NCBI GenBank assembly: GCA_030018935.1
Contig: JASEGZ010000017.1
Span: forward strand, 1 to 37,140
DNA length: 37,140 nucleotides
From: Syntrophales bacterium
Lineage (GTDB): Bacteria > Desulfobacterota > Syntrophia > Syntrophales > CG2-30-49-12
Direction: 5' to 3'
The notes beneath the pieces were generated by a model. That model was not told the DNA's origin. It saw only the letters and a program-made list of their open reading frames with translations, and did no database searches. A program made the translations under genes and the position numbers. Shown here piece by piece: positions 31,076 to 36,959 of the stretch (its first letter is position 1; the number at the start of each line of letters is the position of its first letter).

Positions 31076-31966
31076 GTGATTAAAAAATCGTTTGTCATTA
31101 CCGCGTTCCTTCTCATCCTGGTCCTCTTCGGGAATATCGGCCTGTATCTTGTTTATCCCGATGTGTCAAAATTGAAGAAATGGCGCCCGAAGAAGACCGC
31201 CTTCATGGAATATCAGGAAAAAGAGTGGCTGAAACAGGGGAAGAAGAAAAAGATAAAATATAAATGGGCGCCTCTGTCGAAGATATCTCCTTATCTAATC
31301 AAGGCGGTAATTATCGCGGAGGATGATAAGTTCTGGTCGCATGAGGGTTTTGACTTCGAGGCCATGCAAAAGGCCATAGAAAAAGATATTAAAAAGAAGA
31401 GGTTCAAGGCCGGGGGGAGTACCATAAGCCAGCAACTGGCAAAGAATCTTTACCTGTCTCCGGCAAAGAATCCTGTACGTAAATTGAAGGAAGCCATCCT
31501 CACATGGAGGATCGAGAGAACCCTTTCCAAGAAAAGGATCATCGAACTCTACCTGAACGTGGCGGAATGGGGAGATGGCCTGTTTGGTATCGAGACAGCC
31601 GCCCGTCATTATCTTGGGAAAGGCGCTGCATCACTTACCGCTCTCGAGGCCGCAGAGCTTGCCTCCGTGCTTCCCAATCCGAGACGGTATAAGCCCACCG
31701 GGCTGTCAGGATATGTAAGGAGCCGTTCGGCAAGGATCTATAAGATCATGGTAAAAAGAGGCATCGTGATCCCGGAGTATGAAGAAGTGATGGATGAACT
31801 CGATAAGGAAGCAGTAGAGGATCAAGAAGACCTCAATGAACAGCAAGAATCAGGCAGTCAGGAGGATGTTGGTGGTATATCTAATGCGGTTGACAGGGGG
31901 CGCATGGGTGGACAAGCAGATAATCCACAGACGGCCCCTGATGAAACGCACGTAACGATTCCATAA
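31076..31966 (+). CDS. mtgA: Monofunctional peptidoglycan glycosyltransferase
   Basis: This 296-residue GT51 enzyme polymerises lipid II into glycan strands and has no transpeptidase domain. A single N-terminal membrane anchor (KKSFVITAFLLILVLFGNIG) holds it in the inner membrane. The GT51 motifs are visible: the catalytic Glu in IIAEDDKFWSHEGFD, GGSTISQQLAKNL, RKLKEAILTWRIE and ELYLNVAEWGDG. The last 45 residues are an acidic and polar tail (EEVMDELDKEAVEDQEDL), which adds length over the usual 230-240. The start is GTG 31076. A GGGGAG lies about 15 nt upstream, farther than ideal, and no better start exists. Confidence 0.93.
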   Translation: MIKKSFVITAFLLILVLFGNIGLYLVYPDVSKLKKWRPKKTAFMEYQEKEWLKQGKKKKIKYKWAPLSKISPYLIKAVIIAEDDKFWSHEGFDFEAMQKAIEKDIKKKRFKAGGSTISQQLAKNLYLSPAKNPVRKLKEAILTWRIERTLSKKRIIELYLNVAEWGDGLFGIETAARHYLGKGAASLTALEAAELASVLPNPRRYKPTGLSGYVRSRSARIYKIMVKRGIVIPEYEEVMDELDKEAVEDQEDLNEQQESGSQEDVGGISNAVDRGRMGGQADNPQTAPDETHVTIP

Positions 31967-32003
31967 ACAGGTGATTATTCGTGGCTGAACCGGTACATTT
32001 ACT

Positions 32004-32142
32004 GTAACTACTCAAGTTAATAGGGGCAAAGGCACATATTGGGGACAGATTTGAAATCTGTCCCCACGTTTTGCCTATTTGCTGCTTAACTTCCTGATTA
32101 AACTGCTAAGCATTGTGCCTCTGTGCCTACCTGAATAGTTAC
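32004..32142. repeat. MITE-like element, copy B (139 bp, inverted relative to copy A)
   Basis: Ends GTAACTACTCAAG (32004-32016) and CCTGAATAGTTAC (32130-32142) match those of 8938-9119. The interior GCTGCTTAACTTCC and ATTAAACTGCTAAGCAT is the reverse complement of copy A's interior, so the two copies are oppositely oriented. Copy B has fewer GAGGCACA units and carries the GGGGAC palindrome at 32041-32065 within it. Confidence 0.75.
32041..32065. repeat. Palindrome GGGGACAGATTT...AAATCTGTCCCC
   Basis: Perfect inverted repeat of 12 bp around a central G, with the same plan as the palindrome after lon (4711-4735). It lies inside MITE-like copy B and is absent from copy A, which suggests insertion of one repeat into another. 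Confidence 0.75.
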
Positions 32143-32187
32143 CATCTATTTATTCCCATAACTTAATAAATATGGAGGTTAGTTCAG

Positions 32188-33318
32188 ATGGAAGACAGGA
32201 GGATGGGGCAAAGGGAACTTCAGCAGGGGGTTATAGATACGCATCTGTGCACAGGTTGCGGTGCCTGTGTCGGTCTTTGCCCCTACCAGACATTGTACAA
32301 TGACGGGATAATTCTTCTCCATCCGTGTGACATCAAGGTTGGTCGGTGCTATATGTTTTGCCCGCGGACTCCCACGGAGATCCCGACCATCCGGAAGAGT
32401 TTATACGAGGAAAGAGACTTGACGCCGGAGATAGGCGCCGTTAAGGGGTTCTACATTACGAGGGCAACGGATGAGCAGGTACGGAAAGGCGCTCAGCACG
32501 GGGGCACTGTTACCACACTCATGATGCTGGCCCTTCAGGAAGGCATTATTGACACTGCCGTCATCGCTGAAGGTGAGGAGAATTTCCTCCACCAGGGTAT
32601 TGCGGTTAATGACCCCTCGGAAGTGAAGAGGCGGGGAAAGAGTAAGTTCATTATATCCCCGACGGTTGCGGAATTCAACAGGGTGGCAAAAGGCAAAGCG
32701 GAGAAGATTGGGGTCGTGGCGACACCCTGCCAGGTCCTGGCCCTGGCCAAGATGCGCCTCAAACCTATTCCCACAGATGATAGTAACATTGGTAAGTTGA
32801 AGCTCGTTGTTGGTCTGTTTTGTGGCTGGGCACTTTCCTGGCGCGGATTCGTGGATCTGTTACGGAAAAAAACAGACCTGGATGCCATCATCGGCATGGA
32901 TATCCCGCCACGGAAACACACCTTAGAAGTATATACAAAGGGGGGGACAATCGAATTCTCCATCGAGGAGGTCAACTCCTGTATCAGAGGGGCGTGTCAC
33001 TATTGCTTTGACACAACAGCCGAATTCAGTGACATCTCTGTGGGCTCTGCCCGGCTGCCTGGAGGGTGGGAAGAGACGAGAACCTGGAATCAGGTCATCG
33101 TGAGGACGCAGCGCGGGGATGATCTTGTGCAACTGGCCCGCGCCAGGGGTTTGCTTGAATTCCGTGAGGCGCCCAGAGGAAGCTTAGATGAATTGAAAAG
33201 GGCCGCCATGGAAAAGAAGAGGACAGCTCTAAAAAACATAGTTGGCAAGAGCGGCAGTTCCCATGACCTCGTGTATCTGGATCGCTGTGACCCGGTGGTG
33301 CGTATGCTCCAGGGCTGA
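32188..33318 (+). CDS. FrhB/FdhB-like iron-sulfur flavoprotein
   Basis: This 376-residue protein is of the coenzyme F420 hydrogenase/dehydrogenase beta-subunit family. The N-terminus binds Fe-S clusters (CTGCGACVGLCP, later CYMFCP). The FrhB N-terminal domain follows (GAQHGGTVTTLMMLAL) and then the C-terminal domain with GVVATPCQVLALAKM and a further cluster-type motif CIRGACHYCFD. Family members carry FAD and pass electrons between Fe-S proteins and F420 or NAD(P)H. The electron partner here is not known. The start is supported by GGAGG 9 nt upstream. It lies upstream of iorA and iorB in the same direction, so it may be the redox partner of indolepyruvate oxidation. Confidence 0.88.
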   Translation: MEDRRMGQRELQQGVIDTHLCTGCGACVGLCPYQTLYNDGIILLHPCDIKVGRCYMFCPRTPTEIPTIRKSLYEERDLTPEIGAVKGFYITRATDEQVRKGAQHGGTVTTLMMLALQEGIIDTAVIAEGEENFLHQGIAVNDPSEVKRRGKSKFIISPTVAEFNRVAKGKAEKIGVVATPCQVLALAKMRLKPIPTDDSNIGKLKLVVGLFCGWALSWRGFVDLLRKKTDLDAIIGMDIPPRKHTLEVYTKGGTIEFSIEEVNSCIRGACHYCFDTTAEFSDISVGSARLPGGWEETRTWNQVIVRTQRGDDLVQLARARGLLEFREAPRGSLDELKRAAMEKKRTALKNIVGKSGSSHDLVYLDRCDPVVRMLQG

Positions 33319-33322
33319 AGAG

Positions 33323-33418
33323 AAGTCATAAGTCGTAAGTCATAAGTCGAAAATTCGAGGACATATGACGTACGACTTATGACGTATGACTGATGTGTTA
33401 GTCGTAAGTCATAAGTCA
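33323..33418. repeat. Heptanucleotide repeat array between frhB-like gene and iorA
   Basis: GTCATAA and GTCGTAA units (33325-33349) are followed by inverted units (GACATATGACGTACGACTT) and a further direct block (GTCGTAAGTCATAAGTCA). It separates the frhB-like gene from iorA by 133 bp and falls within a false 5' extension of the iorA frame. Confidence 0.75.
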
Positions 33419-33451
33419 GTTTTCCTTAATTTACATAAAGAAGTGGGGGTT

Positions 33452-35401
33452 ATGATGTCGAAATTGATAGAGCAAAAGGAGGGTGTTCAGTATCTGCTCA
33501 TGGGTAACGAGGCAATTGCCCGCGGAGCGTTAGAGGCGGGAGTGAGCGTTGCCTGTGGCTACCCAGGCACCCCTTCCTCGGAAATTATTGAAACTCTCTC
33601 TAAGGTGGCAAAGGAGGGAAATCTCTATGTGGAGTGGTCAGCCAACGAAAAAGTGGCCATGGAGGTCGCTGCGGCGGCGTCCTTTGCCGGACTGAGGTCC
33701 CTCTGTACCATGAAACAAAATGGTGTGCATGTAACGTCCGATTTCCTCCTCCATCTTGCCGCTTCCGGAACCAGGGGGGGGATGATTCTCGTCTCCTGTG
33801 AGGACCCGGGGGCATTATCCAGTGTCAACGAGGTGGAATCCCGCTATTTTGCCCCCATGATCGAGATCCCCCTCCTCGAACCGGCGGATTTCCAGGAAGC
33901 TAAAGATATGACCAGATGGGCTTTTGAACTCTCAGAAGAGATCAGGAATATCGTCATGGTGCGAAGTGTCACCCGCCTTTCCCATGGCAGCGGGAATGTC
34001 AGCTTTGGTAAACTTCCCGACACGAAAAGGCAGGCCGAATTTAAGAGTGATGGTCCTATCCTCGATCCGGATGAGGGCCTGGTGTTCAGTGCACCGGTCG
34101 TCTATAAACATCAGCTCCAGCAGGAAAAAATAAAAAGGGCAAGGGAGATATTTGAATTGAGTCCCTTTAATACCTATCAGGGACCGGAGAAACCAGAGCT
34201 TTTGCTCATCACTTGTAGCATCTGTTATCTCTACTGCCGGGAGGCTATCAGTCTACTGGGGGTTAAAGAGAGGGTAGGCGTATTGAAGTTCGGTACCACC
34301 TGGCCACTGCCACCAGAACTCCTCAAGAGACATCTATCCCTGACGGACAATATCCTGATTGTGGAGGAGGTCCGACCATTTCTCGAAGAGCATGTAAAGA
34401 TCCTTGCCGCTGAGATGGCCCCGGAGATCGGGATCAAGACCTTTTACGGTAAGGAAACCGGCCATTTTCCCTCGGTGGGAGAGCTGAACCCCGATCTTGT
34501 AGTATCGGCTCTGAGCAAGATCCTGGGAGTCAGTAGTTATATCGGAATGCCTCCCGACTATGAAAAAAAGGCAGAGATGCTGACCTCAACCCGGACCCCC
34601 AGGAGAGACCTGATCTTCTGCCCTGGCTGCCCTCACAGGGCATCCCTCTGGTCAATTCATAACGCCCTGCAAATGGATGGCCGCAGAGGTTTCGTCTGTG
34701 GTGATATTGGCTGTTATTCCATGGCCATCCTCTCTCCGTCCTGTGGTTTTGGCACCATGAAGACATTACATTCCATGGGCTCCGGGACAGGTATTGCCAG
34801 CGGCTTTGGAAAATTCGGGCAGTTTGGCATGGAGCAACCGGTGTTGACTGTTTGTGGGGATTCCACGTTTTACCATGCCGTCATCCCGGCCCTGATCAAC
34901 GCCGTCCATCATGCGGCGAATATGACGTTGATCGTCCTGGATAACGGCGGAACGGCGATGACGGGATTCCAGTCCCACCCCGGTCTGACGGTCAATGCCA
35001 TGGGAGAGGAGGTGCCGGCCGTTGACATTGCGAAGATATGCGAGTCCCTCGGTGTCAGGGTGGAAATTCGTGACCCCTTTGATCTGGAGGAAACCCGGAA
35101 AGTGATAAACCGGTTTCTGGAAGAGGAAGATGGTGTCAGGGTGTTGATCCTCCGACAGATATGTGGATTGAGTCCTGAGAAGAAGGCCGGGAAGAGATAC
35201 GAGATGCGGGTTGATGAGGAACTCTGCCTCGGTGAGAACTGCGGATGCAATCGCCTGTGCACCCGGATATTCCGCTGTCCCGGCATTAACTGGGACAAGG
35301 AAAAGAAGAAGGCCAGGATTGATGAGGTGATCTGTGCCGGCTGCGGCGTTTGTTCATTTATCTGTCCTGCGGAGGCGATAAAGAGGGAGGAGGCGGCATA
35401 A
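33452..35401 (+). CDS. iorA: Indolepyruvate:ferredoxin oxidoreductase, alpha subunit
   Basis: This subunit of about 649 residues, with IorB, oxidatively decarboxylates aryl pyruvates (from Trp, Phe, Tyr) to aryl acetyl-CoA and reduces ferredoxin. The N-terminal pyruvate-oxidoreductase domain has GNEAIARGALEAGVSVACGY and GYPGTPSSEI. The TPP-binding domain has CGDSTFYHAVIPAL and DNGGTAMTGFQ. The C-terminal ferredoxin part has an unusual first motif (CLGENCGCNRLCTRIFRCP) and a standard second one (CAGCGVCSFICP). The frame runs back to 33386 through the heptamer repeat. The start is taken at ATG 33452 (MMSKLIEQKEG); the next ATG, 33455, fits GGGGG spacing slightly better. iorB follows after 3 bp. 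Confidence 0.94.
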   Translation: MMSKLIEQKEGVQYLLMGNEAIARGALEAGVSVACGYPGTPSSEIIETLSKVAKEGNLYVEWSANEKVAMEVAAAASFAGLRSLCTMKQNGVHVTSDFLLHLAASGTRGGMILVSCEDPGALSSVNEVESRYFAPMIEIPLLEPADFQEAKDMTRWAFELSEEIRNIVMVRSVTRLSHGSGNVSFGKLPDTKRQAEFKSDGPILDPDEGLVFSAPVVYKHQLQQEKIKRAREIFELSPFNTYQGPEKPELLLITCSICYLYCREAISLLGVKERVGVLKFGTTWPLPPELLKRHLSLTDNILIVEEVRPFLEEHVKILAAEMAPEIGIKTFYGKETGHFPSVGELNPDLVVSALSKILGVSSYIGMPPDYEKKAEMLTSTRTPRRDLIFCPGCPHRASLWSIHNALQMDGRRGFVCGDIGCYSMAILSPSCGFGTMKTLHSMGSGTGIASGFGKFGQFGMEQPVLTVCGDSTFYHAVIPALINAVHHAANMTLIVLDNGGTAMTGFQSHPGLTVNAMGEEVPAVDIAKICESLGVRVEIRDPFDLEETRKVINRFLEEEDGVRVLILRQICGLSPEKKAGKRYEMRVDEELCLGENCGCNRLCTRIFRCPGINWDKEKKKARIDEVICAGCGVCSFICPAEAIKREEAA

Positions 35402-35404
35402 GAG

Positions 35405-36025
35405 ATGAAGAAGAAGCAGTTGTCGAAGGATCCTTATAATATTGTGATTACCGGCGTTGGCGGTCAGGGAAATGTCATGGCCTCGAGATTGCTGGCCAAT
35501 ATGCTGGTGCGGAAGGGCTGCCAGGTCACCATAGGAGAAACCTTCGGGGCATCTCAGCGGGGTGGTTCGGTGATGAGTCATCTCAGGGTTTCGGCAGAAT
35601 CTGTATGGAGTCCCCAGATCCCAAAGGGAAGGGCAGATATCGTTGCTGCCCTTGAACCTGTGGAGGCGCTCCGGGTCCTGATGCGCTATGGCAATCCGGG
35701 AGTTAAGGTGCTAACCAATACCCGGCCCATCTATCCCGTGGGTGTCATTGCCGGGGAGCTGGATTACCCCTCCCCGGAAGAGATCAGGGCAACGGTCAAG
35801 GAACTATCAGCTTATGCCTGGTTCATCGCCGCCACAGATGAGGCGATTAAACTGGGTAATCCCATCTTAGGGAATATCGTGATGATAGGTGCCATTGCCG
35901 GGATGGGTGAACTTCCCATTGCCCGGGAAGACTTCAGAGAAGTGATCGTAAGTTCCATGCCGGCGGAGAAGCTGGATGTCAATCTTAAAGCCTTTGATAT
36001 TGGGGTTGAGAAGGTAAAGCAGTAA
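35405..36025 (+). CDS. iorB: Indolepyruvate:ferredoxin oxidoreductase, beta subunit
   Basis: This 206-residue subunit corresponds to the gamma-type domain of 2-oxoacid:ferredoxin oxidoreductases. It has ITGVGGQGNVMASRLLA, the TFGASQRGGSVMSHLR segment and the conserved ADIVAALEPVEALR. It begins 3 bp after the iorA stop and must be co-translated with it. Its 3' end overlaps the convergent glycosyltransferase gene by 41 bp. A phenylacetate-CoA ligase gene, often next to iorAB, is not present here. Confidence 0.94.
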   Translation: MKKKQLSKDPYNIVITGVGGQGNVMASRLLANMLVRKGCQVTIGETFGASQRGGSVMSHLRVSAESVWSPQIPKGRADIVAALEPVEALRVLMRYGNPGVKVLTNTRPIYPVGVIAGELDYPSPEEIRATVKELSAYAWFIAATDEAIKLGNPILGNIVMIGAIAGMGELPIAREDFREVIVSSMPAEKLDVNLKAFDIGVEKVKQ

Positions 36026-36959
36026 CATCTCCACGGGCTGGAAAAACCTGCCCCAGCGCCTCCCTGATGACCTCCTGTACTTTACCGATTCCTAAGGTCT
36101 CAAGACATCGGCTCTGTTCCGTGCCATTGCAACCTTTCTGACGGCAGGGGACACATTCCATGGGGGGAACGACACAGCGGTGATGTTCTCCAATGGGCGC
36201 CCATTCCCGCCAATCTGACGGGCCATAGATGGTGATCGTTGGCGTTCCCACAGCCGCCGCGATATGCGGGGCAGCGCTGTCCACACCGAGGTGCAGACGG
36301 CTTAACTGGAGGAGGCCGGCCAGTTCAATCAGGGTAGTCTTACCGACAAGGTTATAAACGGTACCCCGGCAGGCCTTTACCAGTTCAGCCGCCCTTGCCC
36401 TTTCGGCTTCCACTCCCACGACAACGGTGGCAACATGGAATTCGTCCCAAAGATAGGCGATGATTTGCACCCATTTGTTGTAACCCCATTCTTTGTATCG
36501 CCATCGGGAGAAAGGATTGAGCGTAATCCATGGTGCGGCGCCGATTTTTTCGGCATCAAGAAGCCGCCGCACCTGTTTGCCGGTCTGTTCCGTTATCCAG
36601 AGCCTGGGGACGGTTGTCTCCGCATCAATACCGACTCCCCGGACAATACGGAGGGACTGTTCCGCAGCTCTACGATTTTTCTCCTTCACCGGTAGAGGAA
36701 GGACGAGGTGGGTAAACAGCCTGTTGCGCCAGAAGGGAAGACCGCAGTAGTACTGGGCGACCCTGACAGACGCCCCGCTCAGATATGCCATGATCGCTCC
36801 CCGGTCATCGGCGCGGAGATCAAAGACAAGCCTGACAAGGGCATCAATTAAAACATAGGCCTCCTCGTCTTCACATTTGACGTGACAGCACCGGCATTGT
36901 CGCTGACAGTTTTCACAGTAGTAAAGCCCGTTTAAAGAGATTATTTTGACTCCGTGCAT
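35985..36959 (-). CDS. GT9-family heptosyltransferase with aberrant N-terminus
   Basis: This 324-residue frame matches ADP-heptose:LPS heptosyltransferases (GT9) from about residue 44: VFDLRADDRGAIMAYLSG, NPFSRWRYKEWGYNKW, the donor-site GVDSAAPHIAAAVGTPT and the RfaF-like Cys group CVPCRQKGCNGTEQSRC. The usual first 80 or so residues, with the membrane-facing GDVLLTTP loop, are missing. In their place are about 43 residues rich in Cys (CENCQRQCRCCHVKC) that I do not recognise. The gene could be a 5'-truncated remnant or a protein with a novel zinc-type leader. The start lacks a strong ribosome-binding site. It is convergent with iorB and overlaps it by 41 bp. Confidence 0.75.
   Translation of the reverse strand: MHGVKIISLNGLYYCENCQRQCRCCHVKCEDEEAYVLIDALVRLVFDLRADDRGAIMAYLSGASVRVAQYYCGLPFWRNRLFTHLVLPLPVKEKNRRAAEQSLRIVRGVGIDAETTVPRLWITEQTGKQVRRLLDAEKIGAAPWITLNPFSRWRYKEWGYNKWVQIIAYLWDEFHVATVVVGVEAERARAAELVKACRGTVYNLVGKTTLIELAGLLQLSRLHLGVDSAAPHIAAAVGTPTITIYGPSDWREWAPIGEHHRCVVPPMECVPCRQKGCNGTEQSRCLETLGIGKVQEVIREALGQVFPARGDVTALPSQPQYQRL

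Follow-up and report, generated by a model that had tools for sequence, protein, structure and literature searches.

Does an FrhB-like iron-sulfur (Fe-S) flavoprotein encoded directly upstream of an indolepyruvate:ferredoxin oxidoreductase (IOR)-like enzyme, IorAB, work together with that enzyme, and to which carrier would it pass electrons? The question is raised by a locus of Syntrophales bacterium (assembly GCA_030018935.1, contig JASEGZ010000017.1), where frhB, iorA and iorB form a three-gene cassette on the plus strand within the stretch of 37,140 nucleotides analysed here, termed the window. The host genome is Syntrophaceae-like, comprises 2.07 Mb in 90 contigs and is 96 percent complete. 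The evidence described below favours, with a probability of roughly 55%, a single functional unit in which an IorAB-type 2-oxoacid oxidoreductase is served by a dedicated electron-transfer subunit containing Fe-S clusters and flavin adenine dinucleotide (FAD), which would deliver to a carrier other than coenzyme F420, perhaps nicotinamide adenine dinucleotide (phosphate) (NAD(P)). The three genes are as follows.

32188..33318, plus strand: frhB, an FrhB/FdhB-type Fe-S flavoprotein of 376 residues (open reading frame (ORF), Pfam, AlphaFold2 model, PDB match)
33452..35401, plus strand: iorA-like alpha subunit of 649 residues, with POR_N, a thiamine diphosphate (TPP) domain and C-terminal Fe-S motifs (Pfam)
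35405..36025, plus strand: iorB-like beta subunit of 206 residues, with a POR domain (ORF, Pfam)

The original prediction had placed an FrhB/FdhB-type gene directly upstream of iorA-iorB, in like orientation and behind a spacer of 133 base pairs (bp), and its coordinates, strand and spacer all proved correct. The longest iorA ORF opens upstream, at 33386; the start is most likely 33452 because the protein of the closest named relative by cassette locus, Syntrophaceae bacterium CG2_30_49_12 (locus L065; FrhB identity of 84 percent, among the matches listed), aligns from residue 1 of that version, which yields the 649-residue protein and the 133-bp spacer. The gap between iorA and iorB measures 3 bp, and frhB is the sole match to PF04432 in the host genome.

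The pairing of FrhB with IorA is more than chance. Two separate searches of 395 genomes of the phylum, using the window's own proteins as queries and retaining the best few candidates per genome under fixed E-value limits, located FrhB in 77 genomes and this type of IorA in 78. Both were present in 74 genomes, FrhB only in 3, IorA only in 4 and neither in 314 (Fisher p of 3.5e-71, which is too small because the genomes, treated as independent, are related). Two of the FrhB-only genomes have the start of iorA cut by a contig end (G151, G364) and one is unexplained (G402); among the IorA-only genomes, two place the gene at a contig edge (G243, G198), one has a partial FrhB adjoining (G417) and the fourth, with a completeness of 67 percent, shows no FrhB in its flanks (G100). 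Most FrhB places (84/95) have an IorA of this type no more than 3 kb away, with FrhB first in 82 and a median gap of 100 bp. Within the order (60 genomes, host included), FrhB was found at an E-value of 1e-20 or better in 25 genomes, and all 27 FrhB loci have an IorA match, which in L027 covers only the C-terminal part.

A scan of named genomes, restricted to the best 80 of at least 125 relatives (at least 593 stretches), gave 79 FrhB loci. This set leans towards iorA-linked FrhBs because its query was built from FrhBs beside iorA; the 395-genome comparison is independent of that query. IorA, at least in part, is encoded on the same strand in 75 of the 79 loci, nearly full length in 69, with FrhB first in 60 and the order iorA-iorB-frhB in 15. 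The loci come from at least five phyla, comprising Desulfobacterota and relatives, Bacillota, Chloroflexota, Spirochaetota and Nitrospirota, and all three genes occur in Oscillibacter valericigenes An860 (L085), one of the Bacillota, and in Desulfatibacillum alkenivorans DSM 16219 (L135). Rough clustering over the 79 loci recovered FrhB in 74, IorA in 70 and IorB in 60, the next family reaching 12. Over 61 loci, the Mantel correlation was 0.93 between IorA and IorB and 0.61 between FrhB and IorA; close IorA sequences accompany distant FrhBs in 84 locus pairs, while L072 shows the opposite, its FrhB being close and its IorA distant. Since FrhB distances track IorA less closely than those of IorB do, these sequence distances suggest that FrhBs were exchanged while the pairing was kept, although faster change of FrhB could account for part of the effect. 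Co-occurrence and gene neighbourhood thus support the proposed functional link between frhB and iorAB and clearly bear out the expectation that the genes would be neighbours in relatives.

These distributions also bear on the simplest alternative, namely that FrhB is an independent flavoprotein which travels with ior and shares no function with it. Four of the 79 FrhB loci lacking IorA and approximately 12 IorA copies lying apart from FrhB would agree with this view, which nevertheless appears scarcely credible considering the genome-level co-occurrence, the two gene orders, the probable exchange of FrhB with retention of the pairing and a cysteine motif carried by the linked IorA proteins. 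This motif and the second cluster motif of IorA are located as follows.

35225..35278, plus strand: five-cysteine motif of IorA, C592-x4-C597-x-C599-x3-C603-x5-C609 (present in all 84 linked sequences, in none of the 26 ordinary ones)
35333..35365, plus strand: second cluster motif of IorA, Cys 628, 631, 634 and 638 (sequence)

Pfam identifies POR_N and TPP_enzyme_C in IorA and POR in IorB, a layout shared with the two-subunit indolepyruvate:ferredoxin oxidoreductase. The cassette differs from that enzyme by its FrhB partner, by the five-cysteine motif and by scores below both curated IOR equivalogs (TIGR03336, IorA 582.4 against a cut-off of 650.9; TIGR03334, IorB 176.2 against 205.8). The four further FrhB-linked IorA proteins compared with TIGR03336 likewise fell below its cut-off, whereas five of five ordinary IorA proteins were above it. 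In the C-terminal Fe-S part, C-x4-C-x-C-x3-C-x5-C replaces the usual first cluster motif in 84/84 unique linked IorA sequences and in 0/26 ordinary ones, where merging of identical sequences reduced 118 to 110, "linked" denotes an FrhB match in the same locus and all ordinary sequences derive from the host's own order. Ordinary IorA copies are common in the order, with approximately 33 to 40 percent identity to the IorA of the window, while the host genome has a single IorA match. A quick tree, in which 36 of 106 forks stay open, included 69 linked and 26 ordinary sequences, 9 of the 18 that bear the motif apart from FrhB, and 5 of a third lineage. It contains a branch, supported at 100, that divides ordinary IorA from the linked and separated copies. 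The distribution of the motif fits, as a correlation, a role in transfer to FrhB. An ordinary IOR identity was also considered for the window's enzyme and is lowered by the sub-cut-off scores together with the five-cysteine motif. Because IorA and IorB score under the curated IOR cut-offs, aryl-pyruvate, the substrate originally envisaged, is uncertain as judged from sequence. In Desulfococcus multivorans, an IorA3B3 pair is reported to be formed specifically on phenylpyruvate (PMC5109826).

Two loci present unusual arrangements of these genes. L016 reads iorA-iorB-frhB-iorA, so that one FrhB is flanked by two IorA proteins, each approximately 50 percent identical to that of the window. In L027 (1492-3177) of genome G036, a second FrhB shares one reading frame with the C-terminal third of IorA, giving a fusion protein of 562 residues in which the five-cysteine motif is kept and the TPP region is seemingly changed; this may represent either a naturally occurring fusion of FrhB with a ferredoxin or a copy in decay.

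FrhB itself exceeds the Pfam cut-offs for FrhB_FdhB_C (PF04432; 114.6 bits against 23.3), FrhB_FdhB_N (PF04422; 52.3 against 22) and Fer4 (26.6 bits). The features relevant to electron transfer and to the flavin pocket are listed below.

32248..32364, plus strand: ferredoxin-like N-terminal stretch of FrhB, residues 21-59, with Cys 21, 24, 27, 31, 47, 54 and 58 (conservation, match to the zeta subunit described below)
32827..32829, plus strand: Trp214 of FrhB, two residues past Cys212 (63 of 64 here, 0 of 5 solved FrhB-family chains aligned)
32899..32916, plus strand: loop DIPPRK of FrhB, residues 238-243, aligned with IGKGK of the F420 hydrogenase FrhB (alignment)

An alignment of 64 FrhBs was assembled from the window protein and 63 of 78 extracted sequences, three of which (L124, L127, L142) come from loci without IorA; the FrhB "type" so delimited is a working label rather than a proven clade. 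Eleven cysteines are invariant in 64/64 sequences, comprising the seven N-terminal residues and Cys 181, 212, 270 and 273 of the core. The AlphaFold2 model built from these sequences is confident (predicted local distance difference test, pLDDT, of 93.6; predicted template modelling score, pTM, of 0.93). Its best PDB match is 8riu_B (Z of 46.5; root mean square deviation of 2.1 over 350 residues, full length), followed by FwdI (8rja_E, Z of 40.5), Fsr, FrhB and 7-hydroxymethyl chlorophyll a reductase (HCAR; 5dqr, Z of 33.2), in this order. By homology, the core would hold one predicted [4Fe-4S] cluster and FAD. The N-terminus may, by analogy, carry two clusters, although seven conserved cysteines are insufficient to explain both fully. 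The wiring of Fe-S centres to flavin attributed to FrhB at the outset is supported by the invariant cysteines and by the confidently modelled fold.

The closest structural relatives, the zeta subunit of carbon monoxide dehydrogenase (CODH; 8riu_B) and FwdI of Candidatus Ethanoperedens, likewise combine a ferredoxin-like N-terminus with an Fe-S/FAD FrhB domain in a single chain. The CODH zeta subunit is described as anchored through its ferredoxin domain, in a complex that couples CO oxidation to reduction of F420, a two-electron carrier (PMC11493965). Both relatives sit on a CO2-releasing enzyme, while the 2-oxoacid oxidoreductase partner of the cassette FrhB is known from gene linkage. They differ from the latter in that the cassette is found in bacteria mostly without CofD where checked, in levels of identity of 25 to 27 percent and, for zeta, in the replaced loop. 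The FrhB of F420-reducing hydrogenase has the same core fold and four cluster cysteines, but the cassette protein lacks its GKGK loop, contains an extra N-terminal domain and scores 144 bits with TIGR03289 against a cut-off of 331.5. FpoF shares the N-terminal ferredoxin domain and the FrhB domain, but the corresponding two models give 98.6 and 97.6 bits against cut-offs of 444 and 475.

This family membership and the nearest solved relatives, which are named F420 enzymes, would favour a complex in which FrhB hands the electrons of IorAB to F420, one of the two carriers put forward in the original prediction, the other being a nicotinamide. A profile search of the host genome gave no match to CofD, and CofD exceeded its cut-off in 0/60 genomes of the order, with weak partial matches in 10/60. 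Among 20 cassette genomes from other groups, 17 were below the cut-off and three above it (L092, L095, L113), so the search is able to detect bacterial CofD. The CofH model had three matches in the host genome, all below cut-off, of which two are MqnC and MqnE, scoring over their own cut-offs, and the third reached 19 bits; MqnC and MqnE belong to menaquinone synthesis. At L030 of the host genome (99-2003), MqnE is joined in a 635-residue ORF to a part that, by eye, may be MqnA, and a UbiA-like gene, also by eye, adjoins it.

The loop aligned with the F420-phosphate site points in the same direction. In the cryo-electron microscopy structure of F420 hydrogenase FrhB, loop 163IGKGK is described beside F420, its lysines being suggested to bind the F420 phosphate (PMC3591093). 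The corresponding motif G[KE]GK is absent from 64/64 FrhBs, compared at the level of pocket sequence; the loop is mostly DIPPxx, with Pro240 in 58/64, while the five solved FrhB-family chains present IGEGK, VKKEG, IGKGK, IGKGK and IKKGK at this position. The FrhBs of the three CofD-bearing genomes have Pro-type loops like the remainder, with no G[KE]GK. The replacement alone is no proof against F420, because a lysine occurs somewhere in residues 241-246 in 24/64 FrhBs, that of the window included, and FwdI, an F420 enzyme, is likewise devoid of GKGK. Taken with the lack of CofD, it led us to set F420 aside as a general carrier, searches for CofC, CofE and CofG lying outside this analysis. F420 is thus unlikely as the usual carrier in most of the cassette carriers checked, and the F420-linked complex has very little probability.

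What the analysis establishes is the gene linkage, the accompanying IorA motif, the fold and conserved ligands of FrhB and the lack of CofD; the physical complex, its cofactors and substrate, the route and acceptor of the electrons and the direction of the reaction are inferred as follows. On TPP, IorAB would turn a 2-oxoacid and coenzyme A (CoA) into acyl-CoA and CO2. Electrons would exit IorA by way of its altered C-terminal Fe-S part, enter the ferredoxin-like N-terminus of FrhB and proceed to the core [4Fe-4S] cluster and then to FAD, from which an electron pair would pass to a soluble acceptor. NAD(P) is our first-choice acceptor, because F420 is mostly missing and because phenylglyoxylate:NAD+ oxidoreductase, PadEFGHI, provides a precedent: this 2-oxoacid oxidoreductase contains an additional flavoprotein subunit and passes its electrons to NAD. 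The flavin subunit of that enzyme belongs to a different family, and the cassette is far below the cut-offs of the PadG (20.5 of 700 bits) and PadE (38.6 of 300 bits) models.

The genes surrounding the cassette raise a further alternative. No general fourth gene is conserved among the 79 loci, as judged by rough ORF calls and with many short flanks. FprA-like genes are found within 605 bp of the cassette in 12/79 loci, in 10 of them co-directional and just past iorB. GlcD/GlcF-like or LutAB-like genes, which by family are 2-hydroxyacid oxidases, stand beside it in 8/79 (L070, L092, L117, L119, L121, L122, L135 and L142, the last without IorA), with an IclR-type gene nearby in four of the eight. 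In the window, neither FprA-like nor GlcD/GlcF/LutAB-like genes were seen beside the cassette. GlcD-like genes also occur near IorA without an adjacent FrhB in L181 and L183. At L194 (2868-5355) and L195 (2620-5028), FrhB stands beside GlcD-like genes with no IorA near, and the respective genomes (G434, G363) contain a motif-bearing IorA elsewhere.

These neighbour-gene hints led us to consider whether FrhB is an electron-confurcating hub which, by analogy with lactate dehydrogenase/Etf, merges low-potential electrons from the 2-oxoacid with higher-potential ones from a 2-hydroxyacid dehydrogenase of the GlcD/GlcF-like or LutAB-like kind onto a carrier. The eight loci, L194 and L195, and L181 and L183 would agree with such a function, as would the 0/26 ordinary ior loci with these genes, a contrast that is uneven since the flanks of the latter are shorter. 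On the other hand, 71/79 loci and the window display no such neighbours, the host genome has one weak FAD-oxidase_C match, and the names GlcD, GlcF and Lut correspond to Pfam domains in few members and to similarity in the rest, Pfam having been run on nine neighbour proteins. No FrhB homologue is known to bifurcate on its own. Confurcation is therefore an improbable function for this FrhB, and its most specific form, in which FrhB-IorAB would be an F420-independent flavin-based confurcating core whose one FAD delivers 2-oxoacid and 2-hydroxyacid electrons to NAD(P), is doubtful to a somewhat greater degree. In this specific form, a hydroxyacid would be oxidised stepwise to acyl-CoA on a single electron hub.

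The flavin pocket of FrhB suggests another role, in which an organic substrate would be reduced or oxidised at the FAD, as happens in HCAR, with IorAB supplying the electrons. The common fold with HCAR and the altered pocket marked by Trp214 and the Pro-rich loop are consistent with this possibility; no conserved fourth gene with a likely part in producing or consuming the substrate was seen, and we regard this role as improbable. The direction of the reaction might also be reversed, FrhB supplying IorAB with electrons so that an acyl-CoA would be reductively carboxylated to a 2-oxoacid. IOR-type enzymes are reversible, and many genomes of the order keep ordinary IorA copies, possibly for the other direction. 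However, the oxidase genes adjoining the cassette at some loci point to oxidation, the host has its single IorA match, and NAD(P)H alone is, judging from potentials, a weak donor for reductive carboxylation, which makes a biosynthetic role unlikely.

Several observations weigh against a dedicated FrhB-IorAB unit with a non-F420 carrier, in addition to the CofD-bearing genomes, the lysines near the loop and the FwdI sequence noted above. IorA is found without FrhB inside 3 kb at 25 of 108 places, and for approximately 12 of these, which have none in the fetched flanks, neither truncation nor a contig end accounts for the absence; a 1:1 complex of fixed composition is thus not universal. Conversely, FrhB lacks IorA in its locus in L124, L127, L128 and L142, and in some loci it adjoins other oxidase genes. 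At 18 of the 25 places the five-cysteine motif is kept; 5 (L183-L187) show a different motif and the other 2 sequences are truncated, such that the motif marks an IorA lineage rather than strict adjacency; for most of the 18, FrhB is located elsewhere in the genome, and some represent assembly breaks. The third lineage, L183-L187, has C-x4-C-x2-C-x5-C and no adjacent FrhB, and it is nested among the linked IorA proteins. In addition, Pfam detected no NAD(P)-binding domain in FrhB, and a structural model of IorA from 10 sequences (pLDDT of 74.7) is too weak to define the geometry of the motif.

The region between frhB and iorA, together with the sequence upstream of frhB, contains the following elements.

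33319..33451, plus strand: frhB-iorA spacer, partly a dispersed heptamer-type repeat, with strong RNA hairpins (repeat count, folding)
32040..32066, plus strand: terminator-like palindrome TGGGGACAGATTTGAAATCTGTCCCCA followed by a T-rich run, upstream of frhB; perhaps a dispersed repeat, and weak, the scan being no richer than shuffles

The predicted RNA fold of the spacer has an energy of -44.6 kcal/mol (z of -5.9), and the modelled hairpin might affect or hinder read-through from frhB to iorA. The scan of positions 31900-36100 gave 4 promoter-like sites against a shuffle mean of 3.8, with no plus-strand one anywhere, even before frhB; terminator-like sites likewise numbered 4, against a shuffle mean of 4.2. 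At this shuffle-like level the scan speaks neither for nor against separate transcription of iorA from a promoter in the spacer, which the original prediction had named as a refuting finding. The spacer repeat (AGTCATAAGTCGTAAGTC...), counted as a 25-mer with at most 3 mismatches, has 193 forward and 162 reverse matches in the genome against 0 for a reversed-order control, overlapping matches in arrays being counted repeatedly. At the other end of the cassette, a convergent ORF (35985-36959), glycosyltransferase-like by eye, shares 41 bp with the 3' end of iorB.

In the literature searched, which excludes most subscription papers, no description of an FrhB-IorAB unit was found, nor was any paper naming both "indolepyruvate ferredoxin oxidoreductase" and "FrhB". 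What is new is that known modules are paired in this way, under a clear sequence signature and across at least five phyla. Proteins of the FrhB type are commonly interpreted as F420 enzymes or as components of hydrogenases; in one metagenome paper, for example, frhB is counted among the hydrogenase genes of organic-matter-degrading metagenome-assembled genomes and hydrogen production is inferred (PMC10116835; its own genes lie outside the present comparison). Since the FrhB type described here goes with one lineage of 2-oxoacid oxidoreductase, such a hydrogenase or F420 label may mislead reconstructions of metabolism in syntrophs, sulfate reducers, Chloroflexota and gut Oscillibacter. Should NAD(P) prove to be the acceptor of the cassette, the calculated energy balance of 2-oxoacid oxidation in these anaerobes would change, and the modular use of FrhB would extend past F420.

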